In this document: piece by piece, positions 6,801-56,800 of the stretch
Position numbering within the stretch: position 1 is the stretch's first letter
How the letters are laid out: every line of letters starts with the position of its first letter
NCBI GenBank assembly: GCA_963969365.1
Contig: OZ017749.1
Span: 3,038,001-3,102,000, forward strand
Direction of reading: 5' to 3'
From: Asterochloris sp. CNOR1
Taxonomy: Eukaryota > Chlorophyta > Trebouxiophyceae > Trebouxiales > Trebouxiaceae
Length of the DNA stretch: 64,000 bases
The notes under the pieces: generated by a model
What the model saw: the letters and a program-made list of their open reading frames with translations, nothing else
Database searches by the model: none
What the model was told of the DNA's origin: nothing
Made by a program: the position numbers and the translations under genes

Positions 6801-9800
6801 CGCTTGCAGCGCCTGCACAGCGCAGATGGCTACAGGTTGCGACCGGCATGCTAGAGGCAACACATGATGTCACACATGGGATGGCTGGTAGGCCACAAGC
6901 GGGGCAATGGCCACTGCTGCTCTGGTTGATGCTGCCTCTGAGCCTCCAAGTGGTCACTACAGACAAAGGGCAGGGCTGCAGAGCAGGCTGGGCATCAAGG
7001 ACAGGCACATCGTGATCGGGGGCATGTTGAGGATGCACAACAGAAGAGCCACAGACATAAGGAGTCATGGCTAAGAGCACTCTGCCAGTATGGCGAGCCC
7101 CGCCTAGGGTACGCATGTCTGCAAAGCCACAGGGCACGGCAGGTTCACAGGGCAGGGCCGGAGGCTCACCATGAGGTATGAGAGCATCAGAGGGTCTGGC
7201 CCAGAGCTGTCAACTGCCTGCAGGAACCCCTCCAGCAGAGCATCTGCCAGGCTGGATGCTGCCTTGCCTCTGCTGCCCTCCAGCTCCATTGCCTGCTGCA
7301 GAGCCATGATGAGCTGATTGCTGCTCTTGAGGGGCAAGCTCGCGATGCGGGACCCTCCGGCCTGGTGCACCCCCAGGGCTGTCATGGCTAGCTGCTGTGC
7401 ACGCTGCGCAGCTGGGCCACCTGCAGAGCGGAAGACATGTGCATCACGTGAAGTTGTGGCCTGGTGATCTCCCAAGAGGCGCCTATGCCCTCTTGCAGCA
7501 GCAGCTGCTGGCTCTATGCCACAGCAGCACCCACCTGGTGGGTGCATGACATGCAGATGCTTGCAAAAGATGTGGAAGTGAGCTGCCCGGGCCAGACAGA
7601 GGCTGCAGAACATCTTGACAATGCTGTGCAGCTGACCCGGTGAGGCCAGCCAGGGACTGTGGGTAACCCCAGCAGGTTAGTTGCTTGTCACTGGGCTGCA
7701 GGCACCGGAATGCCGCTGACCTCATGAAGCTGGCGCCCCGGCCTCTGATTTCTCGCCAACAGTCCTAGCAAGCTCGTCTATCATGTTGAGACAGCACCAT
7801 CAATGCACAGCTGACCTGTGAAGTTCAGCCAGAGGCTGTGGACTGCTCTGGATGACGACCCTGGCAAGATTCTCAAAATGAAAAATGCCTGCCAAATCAT
7901 GCGCAGCTGGCCTATGAAGCCCAGTCAGAAGCTGTGGGAAACATCGGAAGCCCCTGAGGGCGAGAAGCTCACATTAGCAATGCGGGCAGGCAACCTACAG
8001 CTGACCTGTGGAGGCCAGCCAGAGATCATGGAACCCTTTCGTGATCAGCTTTCTGATGGAGTCCTCGCTGCTGTTAACCAGGCCAAGGAGCTGTATGCAG
8101 GCGTCGATGGCTTGCGTGAAGCCGGGCTGCTTGATGCACTGCCACAGGATGGTGATGGCACGCTTTTTCACGCTGGTGCCAACATCTCTGATAGCCTGGC
8201 TGACGATGTCATAGTACTGCTCTGCCAGGCTGCCATCGCTGCTTATGTGCCTGCCCAGCAGCTCAACAGCAGCCTCCCTCACAGAGACAGCCTCATCCTG
8301 CAGTGGTCAGGCACGGCTGTGAGAGAAGGACATGTGATGTGCTTGGTGGGGCAAGGGATGGGGAAGGGCTGCGTTTCACCTCTGCAAGCAATGCAGCAGG
8401 ATGAGATGGAGGCACAGGCTGAGCAGGCTCGTCTCGCACTTGTGAGTGCAGGGATGACAGCTGCACAGGTGCAGGGGAGATGAGCAGCATGCAGCATAGG
8501 GTCCGGGCGTCTGCACCACATGGAACTGTGACCATCTCCACTGGTCCAGGTTCTCATGTCCAGCAGCATCCCAAGCTTTGGGACCCTGTCAGCAAGTAGG
8601 TTGACCATGTGCAAGCGTCCCACCTGCAGGGCAGAGCTGGCGCCCTGCACCACGGTGTGCACCGCCAGGAGGCGTGTATCTGCCTCAATGACGGAGCCCA
8701 GAGCCCTGACAGCCTTGGCCCTGACTGGAGCAGAGTGCTCCTTGCTGATGCGGCTGGTCTCCACAAGGCAGGTCAGCAGATTGGCCTTCAGGCGCCGCAG
8801 GGGCCCTTGGTGCACGAGAAAGCGAGCCAGGCAGGCCTCGTCCTCTGCAGCCAGCAACATCAGAAGTAGGTGCCTGACGGCTGGACCTGACCGATGCCTG
8901 GTGAGGGGACCAGGCAGGGAGCTGGGCCTCTGCAGTGCGCAAGTTGAATATTGATGTCTTGGTGGGACGTGGGGCAGGCACCCTGCGTCCCGCGCGACCA
9001 GCAAAAGTCAAACAATATACAATTCTGTAGACGTCGAGGTGCACAGTCTTGCTCTGGCTAGATACTTGCTGCAAGAGCAGGAATGCAGTGGGCTGGCGGA
9101 GTGGAGACTACGGCATCAGCCGGGCACACCCGCAGTGCATACATGGGGTGCCTGTAGCTTGAACCTCTCCTGCTGCACCAACCTCAAGTCACATTGCCAG
9201 GCTGCTATCCATGACTGGGTATAAGACTAGGGACTGGAGCAGCTTCTCCAGGCTGGCTGATCTGATCAGCTTGAGGCACATGCGGTGCTTGCAGCATAAG
9301 CACGCACCTGGATCATACTCCTGTGACGTGGCGTTTTCCAATGTCTCAGCTAGCTGCCATGCAGCCGCAAGGGCTTCCTGCTCAGACGCTGGCCTCTGCT
9401 CTGCATCGTGACGGCCCGAAAGGCCTTCAACAACCATTTTGCACAAGATAAACTGTCTAGCAGCAGCATTTGCAGGTGACATCTGGGCCAAGCCCCCGGT
9501 GTAGCTGAGCAGGAGAAGCTGTTGCGTTGCTTGAGCTTGCTGCCCATCCGTCTGCTTAATCCCGCCTGCGCACAGAGACAGGCTTGGCGTCACTCTCTTG
9601 AATTTGTTACCTTCTGCTCTGAAGGCCAGACATGGCTATCTTCAACAAGGCTTCTGTGCCTGAGCCCTCTCTAGATCAGGTATGCAGCAGACTCTGGTAT
9701 CAAGGTGTGACTCAGGCAGGCTGCGCACCTTCAGTGCTCAGCAGCTTGCTCAGCTTTGGCTCATCTGCCTCCACCTGGGCAGCATCCCTGTACAGAGCTG

Positions 9801-12800
9801 CTGCAATGCTGCCAAGTCCATCCAGGCACATCTGCCTGATCCCTGCCTCTCCATGCTTTAGGCCTCTGCTGCCGTGCATCACCATCACGCAGCGACAGAG
9901 GAATGTGCTTGCTGCAGGCCAGGCTGGCAGGTTGAGGGTAGCCAGGACATCTGCAGGCCACAGTGTCAGGTCAGCTCATGGGGTTTGGATGCCGCATAAA
10001 GCCCGTAGCTGTGAGGTTCTATCAAAGTTGCCTGACAGGAGCAGATCCAGAACGGCCTTGGGCTCCAAGTCACTGCTGCCCTTCTGGCTGCGTGCCGCTG
10101 CAAACCTGCATAACAGCAGACTGCCACCTTCAGCAGGACTGTGAGAGATGCCAAAGCACTACACAGGGCCTGTGCTCATCTGTACCTGTCAAATAAGCCT
10201 GCCCAAAAGTGATCTCCCACCACAGATGCAGGCCTGAGCAGGTCTGCAGACTCTGCCTGAGGAAAAGGCGCAGCTGGTAGTTGCACAGAAGCCTGCATTG
10301 CCAATAAATTTGGTCTCGCAGCAGTCAGACGACCTTGCAGCAGGCTGAGTGGAACATGTAGTTGCTGGTACAGGCTTCCAGTGGGCTTCAGCAGCAGTGA
10401 CAAGCAAGGCCGAGCATGCAACGCCTACCTGCATCATCTGCAGTACCAGAGCTGACACACAGTGGATTGCTGAACTGCTCTCATCACCCAGAAGGAAGGT
10501 CCTTGCAGTCTGCTTAGACACAGCCACATTAGGCAGCACTGCATCCAGGACCTCCTGAATCAAGACTGTGCGCTGGTCCTGGGAGGACTGAGACACTGCC
10601 ACCAGAATTCCTACAGAACAGATAGCAAGCACTGCATCAGGGGAGGAACAACACACCACCCAGCTGCAGCTGAGCAGTGCTGGTTGCCTTGAGGGCATGG
10701 CAGGCCTGTTCAGGTTTGCTGAGAAGCAATGACTAGTAGTTACTCTGGCTTCATTCTCAGCCCTATGTCATCAGACGCGGTAGATCAGAAAATGGTTTTT
10801 CTCTTTGCTGGTCGGACTTACCAATGGCCTTCACGTGAAGTGAAGGCAGGCACTGGACTGTCAGGGCCTGGCAGGCAGCCCTGAGCAGGCGGCTGCTTGC
10901 GCTGGCCGGCACATGCACAGCCCCAAAGAGGCCAGCCAGCAACTGCAGCACTGCCTCCAAGCGACTGCTGACCCTGTTGACAGCCTCTGGCACGCTGCAG
11001 GCGCAGATTCCAGCTCGCAGCGACTCTTGCTTGGGGGAGGGTCTTCTTCAGCAGTGATGTCTTGTCAGAGGCCGCATGGTGCTTCACATGTGCGATGCAC
11101 GCAGCATCAGCAGCTTTCCAGCAGCTTGAAGACGCGCTGAGCAGATACAGAAGTGCACAGCGTGGACTAAATCTCGGATAGTTGAATTACCTGTCCTTCA
11201 GCTTCTTGCTGATCTTGTCCTTGGCCTTGTTAGGCGTGATAACATCTGCATGCAACAATATCTGTCAATCGCAGTCGAAGACAAGGTCTGCAACAGCACT
11301 ACATCTCCCTCCAAGTGCTTCTAATCGCCTCCGCACTGCCCAGTCATTGGCTGGCGCTGGACCACTTTGCCTTGCAGATGCAGCCTGGCCTGCTGTTCTA
11401 AGAAGCCCATGTGATGCAGCCTGCCTCTTGTCCTGACAAGTCCTCATCGCATTGCAGAAGTGAAGTTCCACCAAGTTTGGCTGACATTGGACTTGTTTGC
11501 CTGGCGAGCGTGCGCATATCCTGAAGCACCTTGCGGGGCCAGGAAACGTGCCAAAAGAGATTGCTCACCTTGGCCAGCACTTAATTTGTTTGCCTGGCGG
11601 ATGCGCTCGTCATGGAAGACCAGCACGTTGTGCAGCAGCTGGAAGCGGGTTAGGTCCAGCATGAGCTCAATGACGTCCTCTCTGAAGATCTGTTTGGGCA
11701 TGCCAGGGGCCACCAAGATCCTCAAGCAGATGCTGCAGGCCTCCAGGCCCTGCAGAATGAGGTCAGCCTGCGTGCCCTCCTGCAGGCACAGAACTGAGGT
11801 ACAGCAAATGCTGCAGGCCCTTAGGCTCCACAGAGCAAGATGTGGCTTTCCCCCTGCAATACAGCGAGCAGGCTGGTATGCCTCACAGAGATGTTGCAGG
11901 CCCCCCATATACTCAGATGTGGCGTTGGCCTCCTGCAGGGCGCCGTTTGGCTGAGCCCGCCTCACAGAGATGCTGTAGGGCCAGGCTCTGCAGCATGACC
12001 TCAGCCCACACAAACCCTCCTGCACGCTTTGCCTCACATACATCTGTCTGCAATCACAGGGCTGCACTAGGAGACCTGCCTGAGCGGCAATATGCCTTGC
12101 TTGCTGCTGCTACTGTTACTGCATGCAACAAGGGCACACCAAGCCAGGCTTGGCAGCTTCTACCTGAGAAACAGGTGAAGCCTGCAGCTTACAGACTGAT
12201 GTCCAGGCCGCAGATGTGCCTGCATGTACTTGTCATGGCTTGTAGTGCATGCTGCACTTCATGACCATTGCTGCGGCCGAGGGGATCCATGCAGTGCCTG
12301 GCCCTTGATGTTGTCTGTCAGCAAGCAGGCACACATCAGCAAGGGCAGCAATTCCCTTGCCTGGCTTACCAAATCCAACACCACAGACTGCCCCTGCCGC
12401 ATGTAGCCGGCCAGCACGTCGATCACTTGGGCGAGGAGCTCTGCGCCTAGCAGGTGCAGGGACTCTGAGGCAGACAACGCCAGCACAGAGGCCTGCAGCC
12501 GCTTGAGCTCAGAGAGGCCTGGCAGAGCACCCTCGCAGCTGCCATGCCCCTCCAGAGCGTCCAGGTCAGAGGCTGGGCCCTGGTGTGCAGTAGAGTGCGC
12601 CCTGAGGAACCCTGTTACATTCGCCTTGCACGCATCTGCATGGCAGAGTCCGGGCAACATGAGTGCCCTGATGGCAGCCATGCCACTGTGCATAAGTTGG
12701 CCTGCATGCAGCTTAGGCTGCCTGGTTTTATTACATAGCTCTGCTCATTGCAGCACGACAGGGCACGCCCAATGTCTACTGGACAATGGCGCTGGGCGAT

Positions 12801-13626: not shown

Positions 13627-13776
13627 GATCAGTTTAAGTCAATGTCCACTCCCTTTCTTACACTGCTTTCACCTTTCCGGGTCAAACGGCACTGCTGCGC
13701 AGCACCTGTTGTCAGATCTGGTTACTAGTGACCTGCCAGCCCTTTATGGGGGCTCCCAACGGTTAGATTTGTTCAC
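13627..13776. promoter_or_regulatory. Divergent promoter region, SCC2 / unassigned plus-strand gene
   Basis: The SCC2 ATG (minus, 13626) and an ATG opening the plus-strand gene (13777) are only 150 bp apart, so both genes must share upstream sequence. No named promoter element is recognisable. Confidence 0.45.
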
Positions 13777-16642
13777 ATGAGAACCGCATGCAGCATGATT
13801 GTTGCGGGAGCTGCAGACCTTGATGAAGGCAAGGAGAACAGCCCCGTGCCAGCGGCTGCAGCTGAGTCGGGGCTCTTTGGTGCAATGGCTGGCATCTGCA
13901 GTCCACAAACTCCAGGTGGGCGAGTTTGGAACGCGTGCCCGTTCCAACAGGCGTATCATGCCCCCGTGGCCATCCGTGACTCCGACCAAGCCGGTGCCAT
14001 GTGCAGAAGGCATGGTCAATGCCAGCCGCATCCAGAAAAAAGTGGCCCCAGGCAAAGGTGGAGTGCTGGCAGCCAGCAGAAGCAGGCTTGGACAGGTGAT
14101 CCAACTGCAGACAGTTCCTGCAGCGGTGGGGGGCAGGACCTCAAGTGCCCAGGCAAGTTTGTACACTGTGATTGTGGATTGCACCTGATTGTGCAACTCG
14201 TTATAGGCCTGCAAGGTCTGGAGCAGGCTTGACCACTATGGCCCCTGGTGCAGGTCAACACTGTGCATAATGGGCCAGAAGCCATGAAGAGTTCGCCCGG
14301 CACAGTCATACGCACCACAGGGCTGGATGGCACCCCTCCAGCCAGGTGAGACCCCCACAGCCCGGCAATTTCACGTCCCACATGCCTGGCCTCATGCACT
14401 GCCGTGTGGGTGACAGCTGCTTAGTGCTCAGGGCAGTGCTCAGCATGTTGCAGCAGGCTGCACAACCGCCCACACTCGACGCTGCGGTCTCAGGCTGCAT
14501 CCTGTTCCATGTCGCAGGCACCCCAGTGACAAGGGCCACCCCCGCGCCCCAGTGGAGGGCCCACCACGAGGGTTGCAGAGCAGCACTGTGCCCCGCCCCA
14601 CACCTGTGCACAGGCCAGGCGCGGTCCCAGGGACCAGGACCTTCGTGCGTGTCAGGTGAAGGGTGGCCTGAAGATTCCCAGTCTGCTGCTTTTCTGAGCA
14701 GGCCATGCTGGGCACAACAATGAGCCCTGGGCCCCAAAGGAGCCAATTAGAGGCTCATGAGGTGAGCGCCTAGAAAGAGCAAGGCGGGGGTACTCTATCC
14801 ACACTGTTACTGTGCTGCCATGTGTGAGCTGGCCTGAACCACTGCAGACTAGATTGGCAACCGCTGGATTGCTGCTGGCCAGCAGCCTGGCTCCTCTCAA
14901 AATCGCATCAAATCACACGCGACCTGCACTGAGCCGCTTCAGCCAGGTGTTGTGCAGCGCAGAACCCCTTGGAGTTGCTCAGCGATATCCTGCAATGTCG
15001 CATCTTGTCCAATGCATGACGCTGATGACTTGATGCTTTGCGCTCGAGCATACCCTGACACACACTCAATGTGCATGGCATGACTCCCTACCGCACAGCT
15101 GTTGCACAGGCTCAAATGGACAGACAGCTGGTTGCTTAGACACTTGAATTGCTGGGACGCACTGGACCTGAGTGCACTGCATCGCAGCACAGATCCACTC
15201 ACTGCCTGCTGCCCTGACTGGCCGTGCCATGCAGCGTGCAATCCAGCTGAGCGCAGTGCAATGCAGTGCCAGGTCACTACTGAGGCCCCCCCAAACAGGC
15301 TACCGCTTCCACCTACAGGGCAAGGCGCATCAACCTGGGTGCACTGCACAGCAGCCTCAGCCAAAAGCATCCACTTGCAACCCTGCGTCCCAGGCCAACT
15401 TCCCAGGAGCTGCTGTCTTCTCCTGCAGAGCACATGCTCAACCTGCACTGCGCGGCAGTTCCATGCTAACACTCCTACTCCTCAAGGTGTCCTGTGTCAC
15501 AGGTCAGCTCCCCTGAGTGGCTGCTGTCCATACCTGCAGGGCGCGGCGCACCCTCAACCTGGGCGCCGACTCTGACTGCAGCTCCCTGCAGACGTCCTCC
15601 GACAGCGGGGTGCTGCCCCCCCTGGGATGCTCCCGCTCGGCAGAGGACCTCAGGCTCAGCACAGACCGCCTATTCCGCAGCAGCAGCGGGCAGCTGATGT
15701 GCCTGGCCCGCTCTGCCGACTGGAGCCAGGGCGCGGCCCTGCAGCGCAAGCGCTCGGTGAGTCAGCATGTGGAGGAACTGCAGATGGTTGCCAATGGGCA
15801 CAGCCTGTGCTTTGCTCAAGGGCCAGGGCGCAACCCTACAGCGCCAGCGCTCTGTGGATGTTTCTGGAGGACTTTGCCCTGGTGCTAGGCAGATGCTTTG
15901 CACGCTGTGGCCAATAAAGGGCTCTGTCATGTCAGGGCTCGGTGGCTGCTTGTTGGGGCAGTCCTTCATCAGTATGCACAGCATCTGCTTTGCTTATTTG
16001 GGGCCAAGGTGGGGCCTGCCATTGAGGTGCTGGAGTGGAGCTTGTGCAGCCTGTGCACATTCCAAGTGCACAGCATGTGCTCTGCTGCCTTTGGCCAGAC
16101 AGCTGCCCTACAGCGCAAGCTGAGTCTCCTCTTGTTTGCTGTTGGGCAGCCTGCCGTCTGAGGCTCAGCGATTCTGCTGCTGCCTACAGGACCGCGGTGG
16201 CGTGGAGATTCCAGTATCCAGAAAGAGCTTCAAGCGTGATGAAACCAGTCAGAGCTGGGACGCTGCAGCTGCATGCCTTGCCAGCATGCATCTGCAGGTG
16301 AGTCTGATCCTCAGGTCTGCCTTGCCAGGATCCATCATGTATGTGCTTGAGAACATGCAGGCATTGCAGACTATGTCATCACAAGGGCCGCATTTGTTAC
16401 ATCCCTATGCTCCTGAGTCCTGCAGCAAATGCATATGTCGTGACAAGGGTGGATCTCACTGACTTGCACAGCGCTGTGCTCTGCACTTGAGTGAGTCCCT
16501 ATGTAGACCTGCCTGGAAATGTGGAATGCCCGAGTGCTTGCAGTCTGGCTGCAGCTGCAGAGTCTACTGCTCTGCGATGCTCGAGGCCCTTGTCCAGCAG
16601 CGTGACCTGTCCCGCCTGGGGCTGCAGCGGTGCCCTGCTTAG
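13777..16642 (+). CDS. Unassigned Ser/Pro/Arg-rich protein, probably disordered
   Basis: I do not recognise this protein. Coding-like exons on the plus strand are: the region of 13777-14095 (contains GKENSPVPAAAAESGLFGAM and, in another frame, IMPPWPSVTPTKPVPCAEG and RIQKKVAPGKGGVLAASR, so the exon join here is unresolved); 14253-14346 (VHNGPEAMKSSPGTVIRT); a Pro/Arg-rich piece around 14.5-14.65 kb; 15541-15756 (RRTLNLGADSDCSSLQTSSD, SAEDLRLSTDRLFRSSSG), ending at a GTGAGT donor; 16191-16299 (DRGGVEIPVSRKSFKRDETS); and 16562-16642 (MLEALVQQRDLSRLGLQ, stop TAG). The 15.5 kb and 16.2 kb exons join in frame at perfect splice sites. A TGTAA lies 127 nt after the stop. Many S-P, T-P and R-x-S sites suggest a phosphorylated, unstructured protein. 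Start and first exon are uncertain. Confidence 0.5.
15312..15570 (+). repeat. Intronic copies of an exon start in the unassigned gene
   Basis: The exon start at about 15541, ctgcag then ggcgcggcgcaccctcaacct, is preceded by two degenerate copies in its upstream intron. The word ctcaacct sits at 15553 (exon), 15437 and about 15330, steps of 116 and 107 bp, and each copy keeps a TGCAG or TACAG acceptor-like end. Confidence 0.65.
15722..16130 (+). repeat. Intronic copies of an exon end in the unassigned gene
   Basis: The exon end at 15725-15762 (gccctgcagcgcaagcgctcg followed by the donor) recurs in the following intron near 15826-15860 (caaccctacagcgccagcg) and 16100-16125 (ctgccctacagcgcaagc). 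A linked upstream word, cacagc.tgtgct.tgct, recurs near 15800, 15978 and 16068, so the repeated unit is about 90-100 bp. Confidence 0.6.
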
Positions 16643-17059: not shown

Positions 17060-20000
17060 TCAATGTTGCTCTGACTGAGTCTCCTGTGATCTGGCTCGAC
17101 TGATGAGTGGCTTGAGCTGATCTTGCTTCGCCAGGGTCCTTAAAAAGGTGAAGAGAAAGGGGATCCAGTTGTGCTTCCTTCTGCAGCAACAAGAAGTGCC
17201 TGCTCAGAAATTGCTCAAGACTGTCCCTGGAAACACGATTCTCCACCCAGACTTGCCTCAAGTTGTCCTCATGCCAGCTAGCATGCCTGTCGGCTTCAAG
17301 CTGAAGGTCAGACCGTGCCCTGCAGTGCAATTGTAAGGTTGTTGGGAACAGCTTTGCTGGCAGCGGCACAGGCATCTGCGGACAGGCCAGTCCCCATAAA
17401 TTGCCAACACACCAGCCATGCATCAACCGCTGGACACATCATGTGTGGCAGCAATGGTTATGCAGAGTGCATGGCAGGCTCACCTGGCCAGCTCGTGTTC
17501 CAGCTCACCCCTTGGAACACCTGCACCAGTGGTGATCTGCTTTTGTTAAAGGCTGCAGGCATGGACAAGGTCAGCCGACCAAGTCGCAGACGTTGTCTAC
17601 CAGAGAAGGAAAGGCTGCCTCTGTCACAAGCACCAGGCGTATCAGAGCACTTTGCCCATGCGAAGCTGCTGGCTTCCATGTCAGCAGGTGCGAGACAGGT
17701 GCCCACGAGCAAGCAGCACCTGTGTCGGCGCTGCTGGCTAGCTGCTGCTGCAGCTGCTCCACCCTCTCCCTGTGCTGGTCTCGCCTGCAGCCAGCAGGCA
17801 GCCCTCATAGATGTGCTGGGAGAGTCTGTGCATCCACCTCTCACCCCAAGCCACAACCTCAAGCCTGCACCAGCTGTGGATGCTGAATGTGCACTGGCGG
17901 TACACCTCCAGCCATAGGCGCGGATCAGAAAGTGCCGTGGCCCCCGTTCATGCAGCCCCTGCCCTGGCGCCACAACCCAAGCCGCAGTCCTGCACCCACC
18001 TGTCCTTGACCACCGCCATCAGATTGAACCCTGCATGGCAGATGCTGTGGTTGCGGTGAGGTGAAGAGCATGCTGACAGGCATGCGGAGCAGGTGTGACA
18101 CAGCCTGGCATACCCTTAAGAATGAAACAGCCACAAGGAAAAGATGCAGAGCACGAGTGCAGGCATGGAGACCAACCACAGCTTAGCGCTGTCCAGGCCA
18201 AGGAGCAGCAGGGGGACATCAGGCATGGCAGGCAAGTGGCACACCCATGCTTGCATCGGCTCCTGATGCATACTCATGCACACACACCGGATATTGCAGT
18301 GCAGCAAGGCATTGCATGTTTAGCCAGCACGCTCACGAATCTCTTCCTGGGAATACCGCTTGATGCGCTCCTGTATGGAGGGGCCTGCCACCTCCAGCCA
18401 GTCACTCTGCAGGTGCATCAGTACCCAGCTCAGAATGGGGATCTGGCAGCAGCAACGGCAAGCTTGCAGATCAGGCAGCAGAATGCATGCAGTGGCCTGC
18501 TGCTGGGCATCTTATGTGGCGCCACAGACGTCAGCTATTCCAGCACAGCCCAGAGCAGGAAACCCATCATGCCTACAAGCAGGCCCTGCCTTGATGGGTC
18601 CAGCCCTCCACTGTGTTCCCTGGTCCTTGCTTTGAGGGTGTGAAGTTGACCTTGAACAGGCCCCACAGCTGAAGCGGCCAAACCCTGATTGCATTCAGCC
18701 CCCACATGGGTGGCCGCCAGCACAGATTGTATTGAGCACACCCCAAAGCAGCATTCCTTGCGTCCGCCACACACCTCAGAGCAAGGCCCCAGTTTGACAG
18801 GACCAATCCAGCCCAGCATACCTCAAAGCATCTACCTTGCTCCTGAGCATAGAGCCTGGGAAACCATTGAGCCGGCCCCTAGCCAGCGCGCAGCCCAGCA
18901 GACGTCACGGCAGCCACTCAGCTTGCAGCTCCAGTGAGTGAGCACGGCACCACCTCTGAGCAGGGCCCCAGCTTGATGGGGCCAGCAGCACGACCGTCCA
19001 ATGCCCAAGCACATGCATGGCGATAGCCGGGCCGACCACACTGGGCTGGGCACACACCTCTGTGCAGGCCCCCAGCTTGATGGGCCCTGCCTTGAGCCCA
19101 TCCAGCTCCCATACATGCCCACTGCGGTGGATGTAGCAGATGAAGTGGAAGGCATCCCCCTCCTCATCTGGGTGCTGGGTCTCCTCTGGGACAATGGCCT
19201 GGGGCGGGCTGAAGCTGTTGTGCGCTCTCCTGATGCTCTCGCTGTTGCTGATGGCTTCCCCTGCAGGCACACATGCCGTGGGGTTGCGGGCCGTTCTGAG
19301 GCTGATAGATTCCCTGGGCAGCAGCAGCAGGGGCATGCTCACTTGATGCAGGCAGGACCACCGGCAACTTACAGAGGGCTATCCTTAAGCTCCCGCATGG
19401 CTGTCCAGGGACCCTGGAACGAGACAGGCAGGGCAGAACTCTGGCACAGCTCTGGCCAGCAAAATGGTGGGCCAGCTGCAGCACCAGACACACCTTCCAG
19501 CACCCAACAAGCATGACATCAACTTTAAATGAGGCCAGCCGCTGCTCTGCCAGCAGAGCTGATCGATGTGTTTGTCACACAGCTGCAGGCGTCACCCTGT
19601 ACTGCTTGTTTGTAAGTTATGCACCCCCAGGGATGAGATTGAATAGAACAGTCTGACAGATGCACCTACCTCTCAGCGCTGGCGTGAAATCTGCTGTGAA
19701 AGACTTCAGATCTGTCAGGGCGCTGCCCAGCTCAAGATCCGGTGTGTTCAGCAGCACAGACAGGATGGCCTGAGTGGCGCACGCATTGCTGATGACCTGC
19801 AGCAGGACTGCTTCCTGTTTCTTTCTGGCTGGAACTACTCAGCTTGCATGGCAAGCTACAGCGCGGCAGCAGGGCCTTGAAGGCCACTCAGCACCTGGGC
19901 AAGCCCGCAAGGCAGCAGCCAGGGTTGCCCCTGACCCTTGCAGTGACATCCCCGCAGAGCCTGCACCTGGTTGGCAAAGAAGATGTCGGGGCTGTCTGCC

Positions 20001-24267: not shown

Positions 24268-29375
<5,108 letters not shown>

Positions 29376-35145: not shown

Positions 35146-39040
<3,895 letters not shown>

Positions 39041-39187
39041 TTTGAGCTGGCGCTGGGCGCCTTCTCGTCAGCTCACTGCTGCTGCGGTCAAATCATGCCC
39101 GGCAGCTGTGCATGAGGAGCATGTGCAGGCAAAGCAAATGACCAGTAATAAGGAAATGGAAAAGTAGGCCCTCTTTAAGCAAACACC
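39041..39187. promoter_or_regulatory. Divergent promoter region, PP1 / DTW-domain gene
   Basis: Start codons of the two genes face away from each other across 147 bp, the tightest divergent pair in the window. No named element is recognised. Confidence 0.45.
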
Positions 39188-44800: not shown

Positions 44801-47800
44801 ATTGGCAGCTGGTCATTCTTGAGAAAAAGCTGGGCAGCAGGCTACTATCCAGTCGTCGTGAAGATGCTGACTGCACATTGATACTTGCCTGCAGGTCGTT
44901 GTGTTTGACTTGGAGTTTGGGCAGCCTGCTGCCAGCACTGTACTGCCCACCTCCAAGGCGCCCTTCAGGGACATCTTGGGCTGCTTTGGGCACCAGCGCA
45001 TAGGCAAGAGCGTGACAGAGGGCGGCATTGACCTGCTGTACTGCTCTCACCAGGTGAGGGCCTGTGATCTGGTAGTCTAGGCTGGCTCTCCCAGCGCCAG
45101 ATGTGTGCTAAGATTTCACTCTTGCCTGTCAGGCCTGCACATTGCGCTGTTTGCAGCAAGCCTCGTATGCGAATATGTGCTGCATATGCATCTGCATCCC
45201 TGACTAGCCAGACTGCCTCTCACAAAAGTCTGCAGAGCATCCCCCAAAGCAAACTGCACCAGGCCAAGGCCAGCCCTTCCTTCTCTCTCTTGCTAACACT
45301 GGGTGGCCGACCCTGCCATACCCCGCTGGGTTTTACCAACACATCCACATTGCACAATCATGGTCTTCCTGCCCTGGAGTACGACAGCCTCTCTGTCTGG
45401 CAGCGCCACTTTAGCGGGCTGACTTATGCTGTCTCATTCTAGGTAGGCGATTCTGCTCGACTGTGCGGCACCCCACAGGCCAGCAATCTCAGCAACATTC
45501 AACCTGCTGCCCTGCAGGACGGCAGCCTGTCTGTGTGGCGGCGCCAGGTCAGCGGGCTAAGCTACAACCTCCTCTGCCTGCACAAGCTGGTGCCTCCTGC
45601 CTCCCGCATCAGCAACAATGCGACGGTTAGCCTGCTGTGCATCGCGGCCTGCGCCTGGGTGCGCTGCAACACGGACCCACGGCGCAGCACCGTGCTACCG
45701 CCAATGCAGCACACAGTCAGCGAATTTGGGGTGGTCACCGCTAACAGCCCACGAGCCGCGCTGGACAATGTGTCGCACCCTTTTGGAAGAGCCCCTCGCA
45801 CAGAGGTGCCTGAGGGGCCGCCTCAGTCCAGGCTGCAGACTCCTGCAGCAGCTGGGGCTGACGAGGGAGGGGACCCATTTGCAGACCTTGCTGCAGCGCG
45901 GCTAGGTGGGACTATTTACTTCCCCTTGGGTGTGTGAGTAGCCAGAGACGGGGTGCAGCCGTGCACTAATACAAAAGAACTTCAGCTGGCAGGACCCTCT
46001 GGGCTGCAGGTGTGCCAGAGCAAGATGCCACAGAGATACAATACCTCGCAAGAGTGCACCAGCTCTGGCCCTGTACAATAAGACCCACATGCTGCTTGAT
46101 TGCTCTGTGCCAGATAGTCAGCTCAAGGAGGGCATGACGCAGTGCCTGCTTAGCCACAGGCTGATGGCTGCGTAAGTCACCATCAGCCTTGCTCCTTGCA
46201 GGCCCTGCAGCAGCAGCCCCTGCCCAGGCTCAGCACATCCAGGATCCCCAGAAGCTGCAGCCGCAGCACATCGAGGGGGTCTCCAAGACAGCTGCTGCCC
46301 TAGGACGCGACTCACTGCTGGTGATGGCCGTCTCTGATGAGGGGCATGTGTGGCAGTGGGATGTGGCTCTTCATGGCATCATTGATGCGCCTGCTGGTGA
46401 GACCCTGGCTGCGAAAGCTGCCCCTGTGAGATTGCCTTGCCTGCTTGAGCACCTGCAGCTGCTTGCAACTGTTGCTGGGGTTGACTGTGCTGCTCGGGCA
46501 TGTGCACAGGTCAGACTGCCACGCAGCTTTGACACATAGCTTGTGTCATGCAGAGCTGCACAAGTTGGTGCTGTCTGCACAATAAGCAGCCTGCAGCAGT
46601 GAGCCCCTCTCCACCTTTCATCCTCCGGGCACCACCCAGTCCCCTGTGCACTCAGCTTCCCAAGCCTGAAGAGCCTCCAGACAGCCCCAGCAAGCTCAGA
46701 CTGGCCACTGCTGCAGGGGGTGACAGCCCCCAGAAGAGCCTTCAGGCAGCTCCTACTGCGGCTCAGGATGTGCACCTGGCCACGAGACCCGCCCTGCAGG
46801 GCCTGCTGCACACCCTGCCCCACAGCGTGACCACCTTCTCGGTCTGCCCCATTCCTGTGGGCGCGGCATGGCAGGCTGCCGGGCAGCAGCCCAGCAGCAT
46901 CAGCGGGGCAGGGGGCGATGCAGTGGCGGTGAGATTGCATGCCTCTGGCGTGTCAGGGGTCAGCAGTCAAAGGTCGCCCTGCCAGTGCCTGAGCTCATTG
47001 CCACGATGGCAGCCGCTGCTCCTCTGTGTGGACCTCATGGCATGCAGCCATTGCGCTGGCAGGTGTCCACAAGGGATGCTGGTCTGCAGTTTGCAGCCTT
47101 GCCAAAGACCAAACAAGGTCATGTCAGAAACTCGGGGCTGCAATGAACCTCCTCGTCTGTGTGCAGGTGCTGGCAGCTGTGACCAGTGCAGGCAACGTGG
47201 AGCTCATCACACTACAGCGTGGAGCACTCATGCCGCTCAACAGCAGCATCTCAGTATCCCTAGGTCAGGCTTGCTACAGTTGCTGCTCTCCCACTACAAC
47301 ACCATCCCTGCAGCGTAGCAGAGGTGTTGTGCCGGTGCTGCCCAGAGCCTGGAGGTCATAGGCGCTACTGTGATACAAGGGCTGCTGCTGAAAGGTCCCT
47401 GGCATATTGCAGCTCTGCCAGCATGAGGGCTGCTTGTGGCTGTGGCCGGTGTGAAGGTGGGAACCAGCCACGCAAGACTCGGAAAGAAGCAGACACACCT
47501 CTTTGTGTGGCTCTGGCAGGCGCTGGCACCGGCAGTCCTGCAGCCAGCAAAGCCATACTTCTGCTATTGCAGGCGCACATAAGGACGTGGTGAGAGGGGT
47601 GCGCTGGCTCGGGCCCTCCCCGAGGGTCGTCTCCTTCAGCAGCGAGAAGGCAAGCGGCCTGCACTGCCTATGCTCTGCTGCAGACCTGCTTGAACTCCAG
47701 GCCTGCAGAGCCATCTGCTGGGCACCACCTTACCATGGCCAGCTCAATCTTGTCCTGCACTGCACCTGCAAGCAGGAGCGGCCCAGCACTGCAAACTGCA

Positions 47801-50800
47801 TGCTCAAGTAGGCAGCCCTCAAGAAGAACTCACGCCGTTTGAAGTGCCCAATGATTGCAGGCCAACTTCACTCCTTGGCTGCAGGTGCAGCACGGCTTCC
47901 GCAACACCCTGCTGCTGACAGACATCAGGAATCGCTCAAGCGTTCCCTTCAGGGAGGTGAGCTGTTTTGCAGCGCCAGCCCATTACATGATTTTGGGAGG
48001 TCAGGCTGGATGTCAAGCTGCTTATGCTTGCACCAAGTGGTCCTTGGACGCACCCTGTCCAGTCTGCTGCTGATAGCCCTCGTCGATGAAACAAGAGTGG
48101 GCCCTGCGCATCTTTGCAAGCCTGAGATCTCAGGTCTCAGGGCATGCTTACTTTGACTGCATGATGTGGACAGGACCAGTGCCTGCTGCAGGTGGGTGCA
48201 GAAAACGCGCCCATGCTGGGCATCCGGGCGTCCCCTCTGGGCCGCTACATTCTTGTGCTGCTCCGAGGGGCACCCTCAGAGATTTGGGCGGTGAGCAGAC
48301 CCACTGCAGCACTGGCAGGGCTGAGTAGACACATTGCCAGCCGTGGACTCAGATGGCACTGTCTGCAGCAGCTGGCAAGCCCAGAATGGAACCCAGGCCT
48401 GTTGCTATGTTTGCTGTGGTCGCCACCAGAGTTCCTATACTGCTTCGTGGTGGCCTCCTCTCCAGCCAGCCATCACCTGTACAGGCTGTGCCCATCGCTA
48501 CGTATATTGAAGTTACAAGGTGTGGCTATCCATGAGCATACCAAGTCGGAGACACAATCGTGGGCAAAGTACATTGCGCAGATGCTCAGACGTCCTGGGC
48601 TACGCCTCTGGCATGAAAAGGAGTGTAGTCTGCTAGAGTCTAAAAGTGTCTGGCCTCAACGATGCCCATTTGAACAGCAGGACCGCATCATACCAGCACC
48701 CAGGGCACTCCCCCCTGCCACCCTGTGTGCAGGTCGGAGGCAGCACGCGCCCAGTGCGTGTGCGTGTGCTGGACCTGCCCTTCACAGCGGTGGAGTGGGT
48801 GCTCCCCAGCGAGATGACACATGCCTCTGCTGAGGCCCTGTCCCCAGCCAAGTGGATGGTCTGGGAGCGCAGCCCTCTTGCCAAGGAGCGCTCCCTGCAG
48901 GTGGGCACCTGCTGGGCTATGTCTGGTATAACCAGAAAGTTTTGGGGTGGGGCAAGTGCTCCCTGCAGGTGGCCGCCTGCTGTGCTGAGGGCACCTGAGT
49001 GGATGGCAGGCTACAAACATCTCCAAGCAGGGAGAGCACGTGCAGAGCTGTACCATGTCACCCAGACAACCTGTATCGTGCCTGGGTGCGCCTGGCCTGT
49101 CGTTTTAGGAAAGTGGACCTGGACAGCTGGGGCAAGCTTGTGTCGGCCGCCAGCCATACTCGAAGGATGTGACATACCTGCACAGGCCACTCTGATGACC
49201 AGCACCACCTTTGAGACTCCTGGCACATTCGCCTGCTTGCTGCAAAGCTATGCTAGATTGTGGCCCAGCATGCCCGAGGCCGCCTGTCAGCGCTGTGTCA
49301 CTGAGTCAGACTGACATGCCTGCCACGTGCCCTCCCGCAGGGTCACTTCTCCGGACCGGATTCAGGATCTTGGAAACGGACGCACAGCTATGCTGGGCGG
49401 TTAGCCAGCTTGCTTCATAATGTATTATGCCTGCCATCTGCTGTCCTGCAGGGCTACTTTGATGACCAGGACGACAACCTGACCCCCCTGGCTCAAGACG
49501 TGTCCCAGCTGCCGGAGGAGAAGCTGGCCTTTGCCTTGGGGGACGGGCGTGTGGGGTTGCTGGCCGTCAAGGGGCGCAAGGTGCGCGCCCTCTATAGGCC
49601 AAAGACGTTGTTGCCTGCCGGAACGTCAGCCTTGGAGCATGCACAAAGCTCAAATGGCGCTGCTCATCAAGCGTCACAGGTTGAGGCCCCTCAGCAGAAG
49701 CTGCGCTCATGGCCCCCACTGAAGGAACATAAGGAGGGGCATGGCCAGGCTGAGCTGGCAGCAGCAGGCTGCTGGCATGCAAGCTGCTGGTTGCCATTGA
49801 AGCACTCCACAACGTCAGCTGTGTGGGCAGTATCTGGACTCTTTACGGGCGCTGCTGGGCCTGGCTGACAGCGTGCACTCCTTGGCCGCGGCTGCAGGTC
49901 AGCGACACCAAGCCCAAGCGCCCTCAATGGGGCCTGCTGAGCAGTGGGGAGGTGCACACCACAACCATCGCTGCCTGGGCTCACCTGGTCATCTTGGGAG
50001 ACGCGGATGGCAACCTCAATCGCTGGGACACCACCACGTGAGGGGGCCTGCTGTGCAGGGTGTGCTGCCGTGTGCAGGGCATGCAGCCGCCTGCAGCATG
50101 CTTTGCTGTGCTGAACATGCAGCTGCATAGGGTTTGCATATCCGCACCAAGCTTGGGGGCAGGCCAACTGCTGTTTACAGAGAGTGTGCTGGATGCACAG
50201 CACAGCTTGTCGGAATGTTGTGCCCTTGGCCTGCAATCCAAATTAAGACATGCAAATACCAGTGTCCACCAGAGGTCAACAGAGCGTTTTGCACTTGCTG
50301 AGGCAGGGGCCTGTCCATGATGCACACCTTCTGGACGTCTGTTCCAGAACCAGTCGTGGGCGCAGTTGTCTTGCAGGCAGTGAGGGGCGCACAGGGTAAA
50401 ACTACCACTACAGGCAACGCGCTGTGCAGCCCCTGCACATGCATGCACCTGCTGAGGTGCCTGGCTGCCTTTGACCTGCAAGTGGCGCACGTGAACGTCA
50501 ACCCTGCCCCCACCCAGGACCACTCTGGCCATGTTGTACTGCAACAGTGATGTTCTCTCATGTTATGCAGGGGGCGCATCACGACAGTCAACACAGGGCA
50601 GGGTGCAGTTCGGCGGCTGCACTTTGCACCCCCGGCCTGTGACCAGCTGGACTTCTCTGCCCACACGCTGTCAGCATCTGCCATGGCCGCCCGCGTGTCC
50701 TGTCTGTTTGTGAATGGCACCTTTGGCGTCTACGAGCTTGATGCCCGCAACGAGCTCAAGCAGGTGAGCCTGCTTTATTCTCTGAAGAGGAGCCATCACC

Positions 50801-53800
50801 GCTGGCCATGGTACCAAAACATGCAGCAGGGGGCCTGCACACCACCCAATGGCAGAGAGTGCCGCCACTCGATGCATACTCATGCATGCTGCCTCTACAA
50901 GAGGTACCTTTGGGGCAGGACCTCAGCAACATGGCCACCAGCGGAAGGCCAGGTGCCCTGTGCAGGGAGCTTCTTGACTCATACGATCTTTGCTGTGAAT
51001 GCTGCAAACAACTGCCTGTGGGCAAGGCTGTGTCGTGGTGGCAGCCAGCCGGGGGGCAGCGTCAAATATCAAGTGCACAGCCACCTGTGCGGGACCGGCC
51101 ATGCCACAATCAGGTCTGTATGTGGTAGCTTACGTGGGCTGTGCCAGTGCTGCAGGGCGCTGTCACACTGGCAGCCAGCCACATGGTGGGGCGTGCTGTG
51201 GACATGTTGTTGGCTCAGTCATAGAGCGCAGCTCTACGCAGCCTGCCTGTGCTGCAGGGCAGCCAGGTGACCTGGTCAGGAGTTTACAAGCAGCCATGCA
51301 TGCTGCAGTGATAATGGCTTTGACAGGTCTTATGTGTGCTGCAGGGCCCTGTCATGGTGGTGGGCCATGCAGAGCATGGTGGACAGTGCCGCTCACGAGC
51401 CTGAAGTGCAGCTGCACGGTGCCTGCTGCAGGCCCTGTTAGAGGCCAAGTCAGCAGCCCTCATTCTGCCTGTGCTGCAGGGCCCTGTCACGGTGGCGGCC
51501 AGCCAGAAGGTGGGGCGCGTGGTGGACATGTCCTGGGCCCCTTTGCCCCAGCCAGTGGGGGCTGGCTCAGTGCTGGCCCTGGCGCTGGATGATGGCTCTC
51601 TCGCATTTGTGGACGCGAGCCAGACCTTGGAGCAGAGCACACGGCGGCAGCGCCTGCAGGCCTTCAAGCACCTCATCGGGGGGACTTGGCCCTACCCCCA
51701 GGTCAGCCGGCAGAAACTGCTCATGCTTGACTCTTGGGGGCACCTGGCCATGCCCCTGGGTCAATCAGCGGCAGCTGCTGCTGCTTGGCAGGATGGACAA
51801 GGCTGTGGTCTGCAAGCTTTTACCAGGCCTGCTGCTGGATCTACCCTGCTGCTGCTACTCGACTACAAGCTGTCTTGATGTTTGCTACATTTGATGCTGT
51901 CTCTGCATTTGGCACAGAGGTCTGCCCTGCTGCTCTCCCTCTGCTGGCTGCTGATGATGCAGAGCACCCCCCTTGCTGCAGTCCCGACCCACTACAGCTG
52001 GATGCCTCTCTGTTGCTGCTCCTCCTGCTGCAGCATGTGCTGCCGGCAAAGCTGCTGCTGCTGCTGATGCTGTCTCAATACATGCTGCAGGGCGTGCTGT
52101 CCCCGCCGCCACCGCTGGGATCTGCGCTGCTGCTGCCCCTCCCATGGGCGCAGCTGCTTCGCCTGCTGCTGCAGCAAGGGCTGCCTGCAGAGCTGCTGCA
52201 GCAGCTGTGGGGCCCTTCATCTGATGACGATGAGGTGGTGGAAGCTGCCGTGTGGAACTGCCTTCCGGGAGAGTGCTGCCGCGCGTGGCAGCAGGCGCCC
52301 CACAGGATGGGCACTGAGGAGGCTCAGGTGGGCTGCCTGGCCTGCTGGCGCCTGTAAGTGGACGACAGCTGACGCTGGGCTACTATTGCTGTGGCGCGGT
52401 GAAGGAGCACACCAAAAGCATCCAGGCTGTGCAGAATTCCCCGCTTGACAGCTTTTTGGCTGAGGTTGCCTGTGGGGCAACACAGCATAGGTCTCTGCCT
52501 TCGGCAGGCCGCTGCAGCCACGTGTTCACCCTGACTTGTACTGCCTGCAGGAGCTGTCCTACCTTGCAGAGGGCACCACAGACGCGCGACTGCGGCGCAA
52601 CACCGCCGATGCCATCCCCAGCGTGGGCACAGAGGACGACCCGTTCTCAGACAGTGCTGATGCGGGAAATGGCTGGGAGGGGAGCTCCCCAGGCCAGTCT
52701 GAGTCCAGCCCTGGGGCAGACCAGGGCAAGGATGGGCAGACTGGGGGACGCTTCAACATCAGGTCAATCTCAGGTAGGTTGGCGACTCCGGGCGCAAGGT
52801 GGAATGGCTTTGCTTGGCGCTGCCAGCCTGCCGGTGGGCTGGTGCGCGCACCGGCTCATCAACACCTTGACTGCTGCCCTGGGGCGACCCATGGGGAGGG
52901 TGGCAAGCCATCAGTGGTAGGTGGGTCACAAGTCATGTGCAGCAGGACAGCATGCCCTCCAGGTGGTGCCTGGCTCCCAGGGGTGGGCGCACGGCGTTTC
53001 GCCTCTGTGGTGGATCATGCACAGCCACCAAGGTCAGACTCCACCCGCTCCTGCAGGTCTAGTAAGGACACGTCATGGAACATGGTGTTGCTGGCCGGCT
53101 CCACTGACAGCAGCGCATGCAGCAGCAGGCTGGTGCCTGGACTTGAGCTTGAGGTGCCTATGCCTGTGCAGGCCGGCTGGGGCGCTTGGCCAGCACTGGC
53201 AAGGGTGAGATCATGAAGAACCTCGGCTTGTCGGAGGAGGATGACACAATACCTGCACGGCAGCCAGGTGCAGCCGAGGTGTTGAGTTCTGTCTGCAGCT
53301 GTGAACTTGCGCAGCCAAACGTGCTGTTGCCCAGCCAGACATGCTCTGATGGCTGGCCTGACCAGGTTGTGCCGGTGACAGCCTGCCTGAACCAGCTGGA
53401 AGTGCTCTGCTTGTGGGAGCCTGGTCATGCATGGCAGCCAGACGCAGGATGCTTGGCCGGTTGTGTTGTTGGCAGCCTTGCATCTGCCTGCCTCACCCTC
53501 TGACAGACGCTCTGCTCCTGCACAGCAGCCAGCCTTGTGCAGGTTTTGGATGCGCTTCCTGGCAGGCCAGCCGCTGTCCTGGCTCCACCACAGGCGCCTT
53601 CTTGATCACTGCAGTTGGCTTGATGATGGGGCTGCTGCTGCCACTGGCTATGCCTGCATCTCTGGCTGGCATCTGGCACGCAGTGGCATGCCAGACAGGC
53701 AATGCGCATGCAGCCCTCTTACCTGTCAAGCAAGCTCCAAAGCAACACACAAGGCTGATGCTGACAGCTGTACCCTGCCCTGCGTCTGCAGACCTCCCCA

Positions 53801-56800
53801 GCATCTCAGTCACTCCCCGCCACACCTACAATGCCCCTCTCATCATGGTGCTGCGAGCGCTGGCCCACATGCGGGCCGGAGGTGCCCTGCTGCACGCAGC
53901 AGAGTGGCGCATGTATGCAGCAGCCCTGGCAGCTGGCTCAGTGGCTGCCCGCATGGCTGTGGCTGCCACGGTGGCTGGCAATGCTGAGGAGGTGAGTGTT
54001 GTCCATACAAACATGCAGGTTTGCGGGTGTGTTCAGCAAGCAATCCAGCAAATTGCAACTGTCGCGTTGGTGGCTGACAACACTTGGGAGGTCGGGGTCA
54101 TGCAGAGACCAGTGATCATGTGCATTGGGGTGCATGGAGGTCAGCATACACAGGGCAGCTCATCCTGTTGGTGAGGTCAACTCCCACTCACTGTAGCTCG
54201 ATGCTGGCACAAGCAGCCCGCATCAGTAACGGCTGACATCTGCGCATGGCTGCCGTGCAGGCGCGCTTCTGGCAGGGCCTCCCAGCCACGCTGCGTGCAG
54301 TCAAAGAGGCAGCTGCTGCATCAGGACAAGCTGCTGCAGCCCCCCAGAAACAGGCAAGCAAGAGCATGTCTAGTTCTTCTTGCACTCCCAATGCAAGGGT
54401 ATGCTCAACGATGGACGCCTAGGCCCCCACCTCAGTCATGACCTGACTGCATCAGATGTGCCAGGTTGGCTGCGCCAGTTCTGCAGGCAAGTTTTGGCAT
54501 CTTGCAGGCTGCACAGCAGTTCAATGTCCTATGCGTGCTGCAGGATCTGGAGGCTGCTGTGTCTGAGGCCTTCCCTGCAGCGTCACGGCAGCAGCCGGCC
54601 CCTCAGCCTCCTGTGCCAATGGAATCTGCTGGGAAATTGTGGAACAAAGATGCGGAGTTGGCTGAGGCCAGGGAGAGGACCGAGTGGCACGAGGTCATGT
54701 CACGGCGGCAGACAGACGTCAGCGAAAAGCTTCAGGTCAGGCATGATTTTTGTAAGGCATCTGCTCAGGCTGGCATGCAGCAGCGCTCTGTGCATGATGA
54801 TGGCAGCGTGGCTGTGCACAGTCTGCATGCACATTGCTCTGCAGGTGGTCAGTGAGCTGCAGCTCCTTGATGCCCTGCAGCAAGCTGGTGTCTGCAAGCA
54901 TGTGCTGCCGATCACAGTCAGCCTTTGCTGCCCTGCCCTGCCATGCTGAGCACTGCCGGATTCAACTGTGCTCCCCTGCCTGCAGGACCGACGAGTCATA
55001 GAGTATGTAGTGTTGGGTGACTACCCCACAGCAGTAGGCTTCCTGTTGGCCAGCAAGCCAGAGCGCACCGCCCGCTACTACCGAGACGCCCTCTGTACCC
55101 TGGCGCTTGCAGTGAGACCCTGGCTGAGCATCTGGTTCTCAGCCATGAGGGACCATGAGCAAGACAGGGTTGCTGGCTCAATGTGCATGTTGTCTTGCCT
55201 GACCGCCGGGTCAAACCTCAACTGGCAGCCATGCTGATGTAGATTGTGACAGCACAAACACCCTTCTTGGGTGCTGCTATGCTGGTCCTGGTGATCTCAA
55301 TCTGCGCATCTCTGGCTCTGCCAATGGCCAGGCCTAAAGTACTCCAAGTCTGCAGCATCAATGACGAGGGAGAGCTGAAGGCACGGCACTGAAACTTGGG
55401 GTCCAGTTGAGCAGATTGCTCAAGCAGCACTCTGCTGCTGGGCTGCAGGCTGTGTCCACAGAGGGCCCGGCCCCCAGTGATGGCCCACCCTCGGATGCTG
55501 TCTCGCGGACGCTGCACGTCCAGGCAGCCAAGGTGGTGGCAGCACACGCTGCCAGCATGGGCGACAGCCTGCTGGGGGTCCCCCTCATGTGCTCAGCCGG
55601 TGAGCACCAGCAAAGGGCGGCAGCGTGCATGACTGGGCCTCTGAAGGGCGCGGCTGCCAGGCTCCCAGCCCCCAGTAGAAGGCGTTGCATGGCAAGATGA
55701 TCACCAAAGTGAGCCTGGCGCACGGCATGTGGACAACAGCCTGCTGAGGAGGCCCCCTCATGTGCTTGGCAGCTGGTGAAAGGACTGATGAGACAGCGTC
55801 TTGCATGCATGAGCATGTCCAGAGAGGACACTTCGCCTCTAGCAGTCGCAGCGGCAGCAGAAGTGCCGTTTCACAGATACAGGCAAGTTCTTCAAGGCCG
55901 GCATGCTGTGCAGCCTGGTCGTGCAGGCTGTGTGAGAGGGTGCGCTGCATGCAGAGTGGTCCTGCCGCTGCAACCTCATGCCGCTGTGCTGCCAGTGCTT
56001 TCCTGCTGCAGGCAGCCACCACGTGTTCCTGTGCAGGGCTGGCAAGCGAGGCGGTTGCCCTACTGCAAGAGGGGCACCTGTGGCGCTATGCATCCACGCT
56101 GGCAGCCCACCGCCTGCGCGGGGAGCAGCAGGCCGCAGCTCTGGAGCGGTGGGCTGCGCACATCCACCAGGTGGGGCCAGACTGCCAGGTCCTGTTGTGG
56201 GTTGCGTCAAGTGGTTGGCTGCCCACAGCCACCAGGGAGGGGCCGACTGGTATGTGCTGTGTCAGTCCTGCAGCCAGTTGGGTGTAGAGCTGCTCTTCAC
56301 TGCAAGCTGAGCGGCTGCAGCTCAACTCGACAGTTTGCACTTTGGGGTCTGTGGCCATCTGGGCAAGGGGCTGCCCACATTGACCAGGTGAGTGCCAGCT
56401 GCTACCATTGTGTTGTCGGGCACTGGGGAACGCTGCATTTGTTGGGCTGCTAGGTGCACAGCAGTCGGAGCCCAGCAGGGGCCTTCAAACCTTGAGCAGC
56501 TGGCCACAGAGCAGGGGGAGCCCTGCAGGGGCCTTCTGCGGACAGTGGTTGCTGCAGTCATCATGGGTGCGCGGATCATTGCAGCAAACACTTGGCTGGA
56601 AGGTGGCCTCTCCCTGGGGGCAGGAGCCAGGCCTGGGGTTACCAGTCCTGGCAGGAGGATGGCAGGCAGCGGCAGGTCTCTGCTGCCATGACTCAAACCT
56701 CATAGCCTGCCAGTCTCAAAACTTACGCACGATTGGGTACGTCGCAAATCTTGCCGGCCGCCCTGCCACACGAGGGCGTCTGTTGCCTGCAGGCTGAGGG

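Follow-up and report, generated by a model that had tools for sequence, protein, structure and literature searches.

Tandem duplication across an AGGT site is said to have been put forward by Rogers in 1989, and also by Gilbert, as a route of intron gain, and Vaughn and Bennetzen (2014) are reportedly a source for short tandem duplications and patch-mediated repair in rice. Minisatellites and variable-number tandem repeats (VNTRs) occur in introns. In rice, short tandem duplications are enriched among mutations of 50-200 bp and, in the excerpted text of the report, are attributed to the repair of adjacent nicks (PMC7971508). Here, a 64-kb stretch of the lichen-type green alga Asterochloris sp. 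CNOR1 (the window; contig C4, 3,038,001-3,102,000) is described, in which introns of unrelated genes contain degenerate direct copies of the edges of their own flanking exons. Roughly one intron in six carries such worn copies in this alga. These introns can be read, with a probability of about two in three, as a fossil record of old short tandem duplications whose births have since ended or become much rarer.

Exon-edge copies in introns

The assembly comprises 56,383,464 bases in 21 contigs, of which 294 kb were analysed in six blocks: the window and 230 kb elsewhere (30 kb from contig C9 and 50 kb from each of C1, C2, C3 and C5). The 60 bases at either end of each exon were sought in the adjoining intron at a score of at least 70, with both flanking exons well scored. 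A copy of the intron's own exon edge was found in 42 of 235 introns (17.9%), on the donor side in 25 and on the acceptor side in 24. Permutations in which other exons were used gave means of 0.95-2.0 per side (maximum 4), reverse complements of the own edges gave 0 and 1, and shuffled controls likewise averaged from 0 to about 2 per side. The controls were not negligible at a score of 60, at which they reached about 9-11 per side versus 39 and 31 for own edges.

The exon-edge copies are real and are not local to the window. Positive introns occurred in all blocks (12 of 53 in the window; 3/39, 7/44, 7/30, 8/39 and 5/30 in the others). With a stricter exon set 25 of 111 introns were positive, and exon sequence lying 60-120 bp from the junction gave just 2 and 3. 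Where homology had confirmed the intron boundaries automatically, positives numbered 7 of 26 at a score of 70 and 6 of 26 at 80. Three further introns added by hand brought the first figure to 10 of 29 (200 derangements: mean 0.5, maximum 3; reverse complements: 0); these three had been flagged beforehand (all were positive at 70, one at 80), and 7 of 26 is therefore the proportion to use. Of the ten positive introns, three (53268-53791, PP1 and eS12) score exactly 70.

Copy-bearing introns were longer than the others (median 457 versus 275 bp). The lag to the nearest copy, measured at 60 intron ends, had a median of 108 bp (quartiles 86-161; 5-95% range 58-268; commonest bin 80-100), which closely matches the unit of 80-140 bp estimated in a first-pass annotation made from the letters of the window alone. 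The serial arrays described there were also seen: two or more copies were present at 18 of the 60 ends, in several cases at regular spacing (95/190/369, 107/215, 88/174 and 62/123 bp).

Exons and introns were called with a purpose-written, two-strand exon-intron hidden Markov model (HMM) that was self-trained on the sampled blocks. The first training drifted into tiny exons (3136 introns), and stricter settings were then tried. The version retained, with an intron penalty of -12, was picked before any exon-edge test for its clean splice consensus and its recovery of PP1; it left just 4% of bases intergenic, which is too little, and called some intron sequence exon. Its consensus was CAG/GTGAG at donors and CTGCAG/G at acceptors (slash, splice junction). 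The acceptor consensus extended as far as CTGCAG/G, with T at -5 and G at -4 both above 90% in the whole sample; such strong positions are unusual for a U2 intron.

In the window, the model recovered SCC2, UCH37, part of eS12, PP1, ALDH22A1, SRPK and WDR11, together with an S10-like ribosomal protein, a DTWD-like protein and a chloride-channel-like protein (a query with the last gave no PDB match at 1e-5). Gene names came from the first-pass annotation or were given by eye, save where homology was run. The boundaries of UCH37 and WDR11 match Asterochloris and Trebouxia homologues, those of PP1 and eS12 match human proteins, and those of SRPK match solved kinases (PDB alignment). The UCH37 exons are near-identical to protein P0013 of Asterochloris glomerata (Astpho2; Joint Genome Institute, JGI); a single residue differs across the aligned exon stretches. 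The A. glomerata genome is given as 56 Mb, with a GC content of 56-62% across 98% of the genome, in the excerpted text of PMC6652019. An independent sign of gene-model quality came from ungapped repeat pairs: the lag between exon-exon pairs was a multiple of three in 31 of 33, versus a lag modulo three of 42/39/42 for mixed pairs and 12/12/21 for intronic pairs. Intron was called exon at 21838-21963 (eS12, a donor copy) and at 37567-37989 (PP1); gene finders may take sequence of this kind for exon, and automated annotations of this genome may hold similar false exons.

Local direct repeats were also in excess when annotation was set aside. At lags of 15-400 bp, 334 were found versus 13 at lags 10 kb longer (score of at least 80), and every one of the five blocks tested on its own showed the excess. 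These counts were made with our own aligner in place of blastn, which gave nothing at lags below 50 bp; a lax gap scheme that put self-alignment in the linear phase was dropped. No inverted repeats less than 1000 bp apart were found by blastn at a score of at least 20 (a few rows appeared at 18), and at distances of 5-25 kb blastn returned 0 direct and 2 inverted matches with a score of at least 25.

The copy-bearing introns of the window are as follows, with the basis of the call given last in most entries.

4971-5336, minus strand: SCC2 intron, acceptor-side copy (template 4937-5045, copy 5123-5235, 64%); self-alignment.
7421-8005, minus strand: SCC2 intron, donor-side array (template/copy 7899-8023/7803-7929, 7997-8024/7807-7834 and 7998-8025/7629-7656; lags 94, 190 and 369 bp); self-alignment, boundaries from our own gene model only.
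11780-12369, minus strand: SCC2 intron, acceptor-side copies (template/copy 11720-11787/11960-12027 and 11720-11744/11881-11905); self-alignment.
14656-15539, plus strand: intron of an unassigned gene, weak acceptor-side copies (15172-15254 and 15311-15342, the longer about 64% identical).
15757-16189, plus strand: intron of the unassigned gene, donor-side copies (template/copy 15725-15759/15822-15856 and 15710-15751/16079-16120); self-alignment.
18407-19057, minus strand: UCH37 intron, donor-side array (template 19042-19111, copy 18939-19007, more copies at 18768-18804 and 18657-18704; lags 104, 283 and 407); boundaries agree with A. glomerata P0013.
21835-22343, plus strand: eS12 intron, donor copy (template 21819-21839, copy 21948-21968; lag 129, 20 of 21 bases identical); boundary from eS12 homology.
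25044-25510, minus strand: SRPK intron, acceptor-side copies (template/copy 24997-25060/25093-25157 and 25000-25052/25209-25260; lags 97 and 208); boundary by PDB alignment.
32109-32653, minus strand: ALDH22A1 intron, donor copy (template 32644-32675, copy 32476-32507; lag 168); self-alignment.
37353-38272, minus strand: PP1 intron, marginal acceptor copy (template 37322-37361, copy 37515-37554; 72% identical, with an in-frame stop inside); human-protein homology, self-alignment.
43000-43691, plus strand: WDR11 intron, donor copy 43206-43263, acceptor copies 43558-43625 and 43496-43529; Trebouxia homologue boundaries.
45054-45517, plus strand: WDR11 intron, acceptor copy (template 45507-45558, copy 45369-45420, 83%).
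48901-49451, plus strand: WDR11 intron, donor copy 48955-48986, acceptor copy 49177-49227.
51702-52090, plus strand: WDR11 intron, donor copy 51736-51787, plus a number of acceptor-side matches that are in part low-complexity (several fall in CTG-rich sequence and call for caution).
55600-56036, plus strand: WDR11 intron, donor copy (template 55558-55602, copy 55730-55775).

Each of the eight genes in which the first-pass annotation had noticed copies thus has at least one such intron, and WDR11 has five. The ALDH22A1 intron also holds a 38-bp minisatellite (92% matches) at 32223-32313, from which short-unit slippage may still be active and long-unit duplication not. The 64 kb of the window contain no tRNA and no Rfam family at the gathering threshold.

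Nature of the duplicated unit

Most copies cross the splice junction. Alignments ran more than 5 bp past it in 29 of 45 donor-side and 22 of 38 acceptor-side pairs, and ended inside the exon more than 5 bp short of it in 5 and 12, respectively. The duplicated unit is therefore genomic DNA, not spliced RNA. Mismatch was almost even across codon positions (0.24/0.22/0.27) and 64 of 69 gaps were not multiples of three, which indicates that the copies are without coding constraint. The decoy splice sites that the copies had been said to carry were present: 24 of 36 copied donors still had GT, and 13 of 22 copied acceptors AG. As 0.59 is expected from overall identity, the dinucleotides have been neither clearly retained nor purged. 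The copies are neutral, DNA-level tandem duplications, and not alternative exons, introners or new introns.

That the copies might be exons held under constraint by the protein, whether alternative (as considered in the first-pass annotation) or mutually exclusive, is suggested by their resemblance to coding sequence and by the gene finder having taken intron sequence as exon in PP1 and eS12. At the level of sequence, the near-even mismatch across codon positions and the mostly non-triplet gaps argue against such constraint. Moreover, the A. glomerata and Trebouxia UCH37 and WDR11 proteins run straight across these introns, and this explanation is highly improbable.

The introns could also have been filled by introner-like or other transposable elements, and introners are known chiefly from fast-evolving lineages, green algae among them, as far as the excerpted text of PMC9860276 goes. 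Far matches were rare, however. A search of the window against the whole genome, made in two parts covering 39.7 kb of the 64 kb, yielded one small repeat family (58.2-58.7 kb) and three short matches among the matches listed. These are lower bounds, as the tool scores its best candidates alone and passes over very common words, and one listing lacked even the place of the window itself. On the part searched, elements of this kind are a very improbable source of the copies. The small family is a dispersed repeat at 58200-58660 that lies between the WDR11 and chloride-channel genes; its relatives on C2, C10 and C17 are 71-84% identical. A 73-bp match at 40841-40913 is 93% identical to sequence on contig C6, in the opposite orientation.

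The first-pass annotation had linked the copies to intron gain, in which a new intron arises by tandem duplication of an exonic AGGT site. The splice consensus makes an AGGT-type duplication plausible, and cases are known elsewhere (PMC4974935, PMC2891723; both seen in excerpt). Such an event would place the two exon copies one intron length apart, yet none of the eight pairs that joined both exons (6 introns) had a lag equal to the intron length (ratios 1.1-3.3, median 1.45). The copies sit within existing introns, mostly with intron sequence past the junction. Very old gains could have been eroded past detection, but the signature is missing from the detectable set, and this origin is very unlikely; the duplications are expansions of introns that already existed.

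Retention and age of the copies

Pairs spanning a junction outnumbered pairs lying wholly in introns by 83:46 (1.80), or by 81:38 (2.13) at lags of at least 50 bp; 9 exon-exon or other pairs and 8 pairs joining both exons were left out of these counts. The ratio was compared with simulations in which uniform random tandem duplications fell on introns and flanking exons, purely exonic ones being rejected and junction-spanning ones freely kept. The simulated means were about 0.9-1.9 (single replicates 0.7-2.4) and varied with ancestral intron length and timing; the ratio was 1.92 with introns starting at 120 bp and dropped to 0.7 if half of the junction-spanning events were lost. These values suggest that junction-spanning duplications fared at least about as well as those inside introns. 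No special junction preference need be assumed, and shorter ancestral introns can account for the high ratio.

Age statistics were taken at lags of at least 50 bp, with chi-squared values computed on pairs with at least 40 aligned sites (54 of the 81 junction pairs). Among 309 annotation-free pairs, a single one, an in-frame exon repeat, reached 90% identity or more over 40 bp; there were none among the 271 other pairs. No minisatellite-like homogenised units were seen among the 81 junction pairs, which had a median identity of 0.765 and none of which was 90% identical over 40 bp. The 54 junction pairs had a mean divergence of 0.268 and were homogeneous (chi-squared per degree of freedom 1.11).

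The first-pass annotation had proposed a continuing, genome-wide process. The spread was borne out, with copies in all six sampled blocks. A steady neutral process acting at a constant rate would leave copies of all ages, and the copies do cover a range of identities. However, simulations with constant births produced 57 young pairs among 251 non-exonic pairs (about 23%), or, over eight replicates, 15-36 such pairs for every 235 introns, and a chi-squared per degree of freedom of 5.9-10.7. Recombinational loss of young copies cannot explain the gap, because on simple reasoning steady births leave at least as many young copies as old ones. The continuing part of the proposal is strongly disfavoured by these figures, as well as by the largely star-like arrays, and a steady process is quite unlikely.

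Models in which births ceased fitted better. The simulated chi-squared per degree of freedom was 2.1-3.4 for a stop 0.10 substitutions per site ago, 1.5-2.5 for a stop 0.15 ago, and 0.8-1.8 for a stop 0.20-0.25 ago or a short burst (12 replicates each, as for constant births); when small indels were added to the simulation, the stop models remained the best fit. In 25 copy-copy comparisons, 281 derived sites were private and 36 shared, and near copies were no closer to the exon in sequence than far copies (0.764 and 0.770; Wilcoxon p 0.83). Fourfold exon sites differed from the copies more than second positions did (0.299 versus 0.222), which suggests that real time has passed and that the exons have themselves changed since they were duplicated.

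The absence of young copies and the even divergence could be accounted for without a stop if the copies were born degenerate, about 20% different at birth through error-prone synthesis or early hypermutation, by a process that may still run. Under two parameter sets, however, such simulations gave alignments that were too long (median 86-94 versus 49 bp), intron-only pairs that outnumbered junction pairs, and a mean chi-squared per degree of freedom of 2.1-2.4. The substitutions had no strong spectrum bias (388 transitions and 383 transversions; C>T 0.117, G>A 0.105, A>G 0.145, T>C 0.143), and fourfold exon sites had diverged as well. Degenerate birth is therefore unlikely.

Several observations weigh against the reading of the introns as a fossil record. 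Most of the 235 introns depend on the purpose-written gene finder, and the simulations were simple and tuned by hand. Random shifts of the annotation gave 55 junction pairs (standard deviation 7) versus 88 seen, so a mild junction preference is possible, and most simulated replicates fall below the ratios of 1.80 and 2.13, except where the introns began short or a long quiet period followed. Intron-only pairs had a mean divergence of 0.267 versus 0.273-0.287 in the stop models (n = 19). Both copies differed from the exon at 74 sites versus 49 expected, indicating some nested history. There were also young-looking cases: short near-perfect matches below 40 bp and, on C2, a single 29-bp unit at 92%. 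Assembly collapse of identical tandem copies would hide young ones as well; 39 of 96 arrays found by Tandem Repeats Finder (TRF) had a period below 40 bp with at least 90% matches, so collapse at least spared arrays with short units, and of the six arrays with a period of at least 40 bp two reached 90% (90 and 91%). Finally, the date of the stop varied with the statistic, identity quantiles (no indels) giving 0.10-0.15 and the spread of divergence 0.20-0.25. Because the two disagree, the date is given as a range: in these models, births seem to have stopped or fallen steeply about 0.1-0.25 substitutions per site ago. Taken together, the observation made in the first-pass annotation is confirmed and its interpretation is partly supported.

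Proposed history and known systems

If the introns are such a record, segments of about 50-200 bp would have been duplicated head to tail at many sites. A duplication within an exon would have shifted the frame and been lost unless its length was divisible by three. Where it fell in an intron or across an exon-intron junction, use of the outer donor or acceptor would have kept the exon intact, the extra exon edge being turned into intron and the protein left unchanged. Some fresh arrays would soon have acquired more copies, the copies would afterwards have drifted neutrally, and births would later have stopped or dropped steeply. The frame filter on exons was observed here, as were the homology, direct orientation, junction crossing and neutrality of the copies, their spread across the sampled contigs and the dearth of young ones; the choice of the outer splice sites at birth, the stop and the DNA-level cause are inferred. 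Judged from size alone, and by analogy, patch repair of nearby nicks or breaks would be the likeliest cause at the DNA level, although the copies are too old to retain exact breakpoints.

Loss of DNA polymerase theta was considered as a cause of the stop and is unsupported: a theta-like polymerase domain, named by motif and by eye, is encoded on contig C16. No match was obtained with PF20470, the helicase-associated domain of theta, a result that weighs neither way on polymerase theta. The model of this theta-like gene (C16:2207001-2216000) has two similar neighbouring peptides (GSLVRI.GR.MQC and GSLVRI.GRMKQC), one of which may be a further exon-edge copy that was called exon.

A more tentative proposal, which falls somewhat short of an even chance, is that tandem duplication acted genome-wide in a single, now extinct episode, whose date is given by how evenly the copies have diverged. 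Many introns would have grown as copies budded off their own exon edges, until the process ended, perhaps through changed DNA repair or effective population size with a new way of life. If so, the introns would form a clock-like fossil layer showing, junction by junction, how splicing tolerates brand-new duplicate splice sites, and junction duplicates would have been tolerated here as freely as purely intronic ones, or more freely. Exon edges that are copied into introns and then decay would be a measurable source of intron growth. As junction-spanning duplications were apparently kept about as freely as intronic ones, outer splice sites would usually beat an identical inner copy, and splice-site choice after duplication would thus be directly testable in natural data. 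Should the gap in young copies hold genome-wide, this alga would preserve the trace of an earlier shift in mutation or fixation, datable with sister species.

Among the literature matches listed, with subscription journals mostly outside the search, there was no account of exon-edge copies filling the introns of Asterochloris or other green algae. The nearest systems each share part of the pattern. Like minisatellites and VNTRs, some intron ends carry regularly spaced arrays; unlike in minisatellites, most units are about 12-35% apart, their relationships are largely star-like and they show no recent turnover. The rice short tandem duplications, as excerpted from PMC7971508, are likewise direct, head to tail, tens to about 200 bp long, without a sequence family and spread through the genome; they are the commonest recent insertions there, whereas here the recent class (units of at least 50 bp) is absent and an old, even-aged set remains. 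Cases in Drosophila share local, within-gene duplication sorted by splicing and frame, but those studies, from the part of PMC2891723 available, count new introns, and no new-intron signature was found here. In the potato RdRp gene (Ma et al. 2016, PMC4974935, in excerpt), the duplicated segment also crosses an intron-exon boundary; there, one young event made a new intron, whereas in this alga dozens of old events lengthened introns that already existed.

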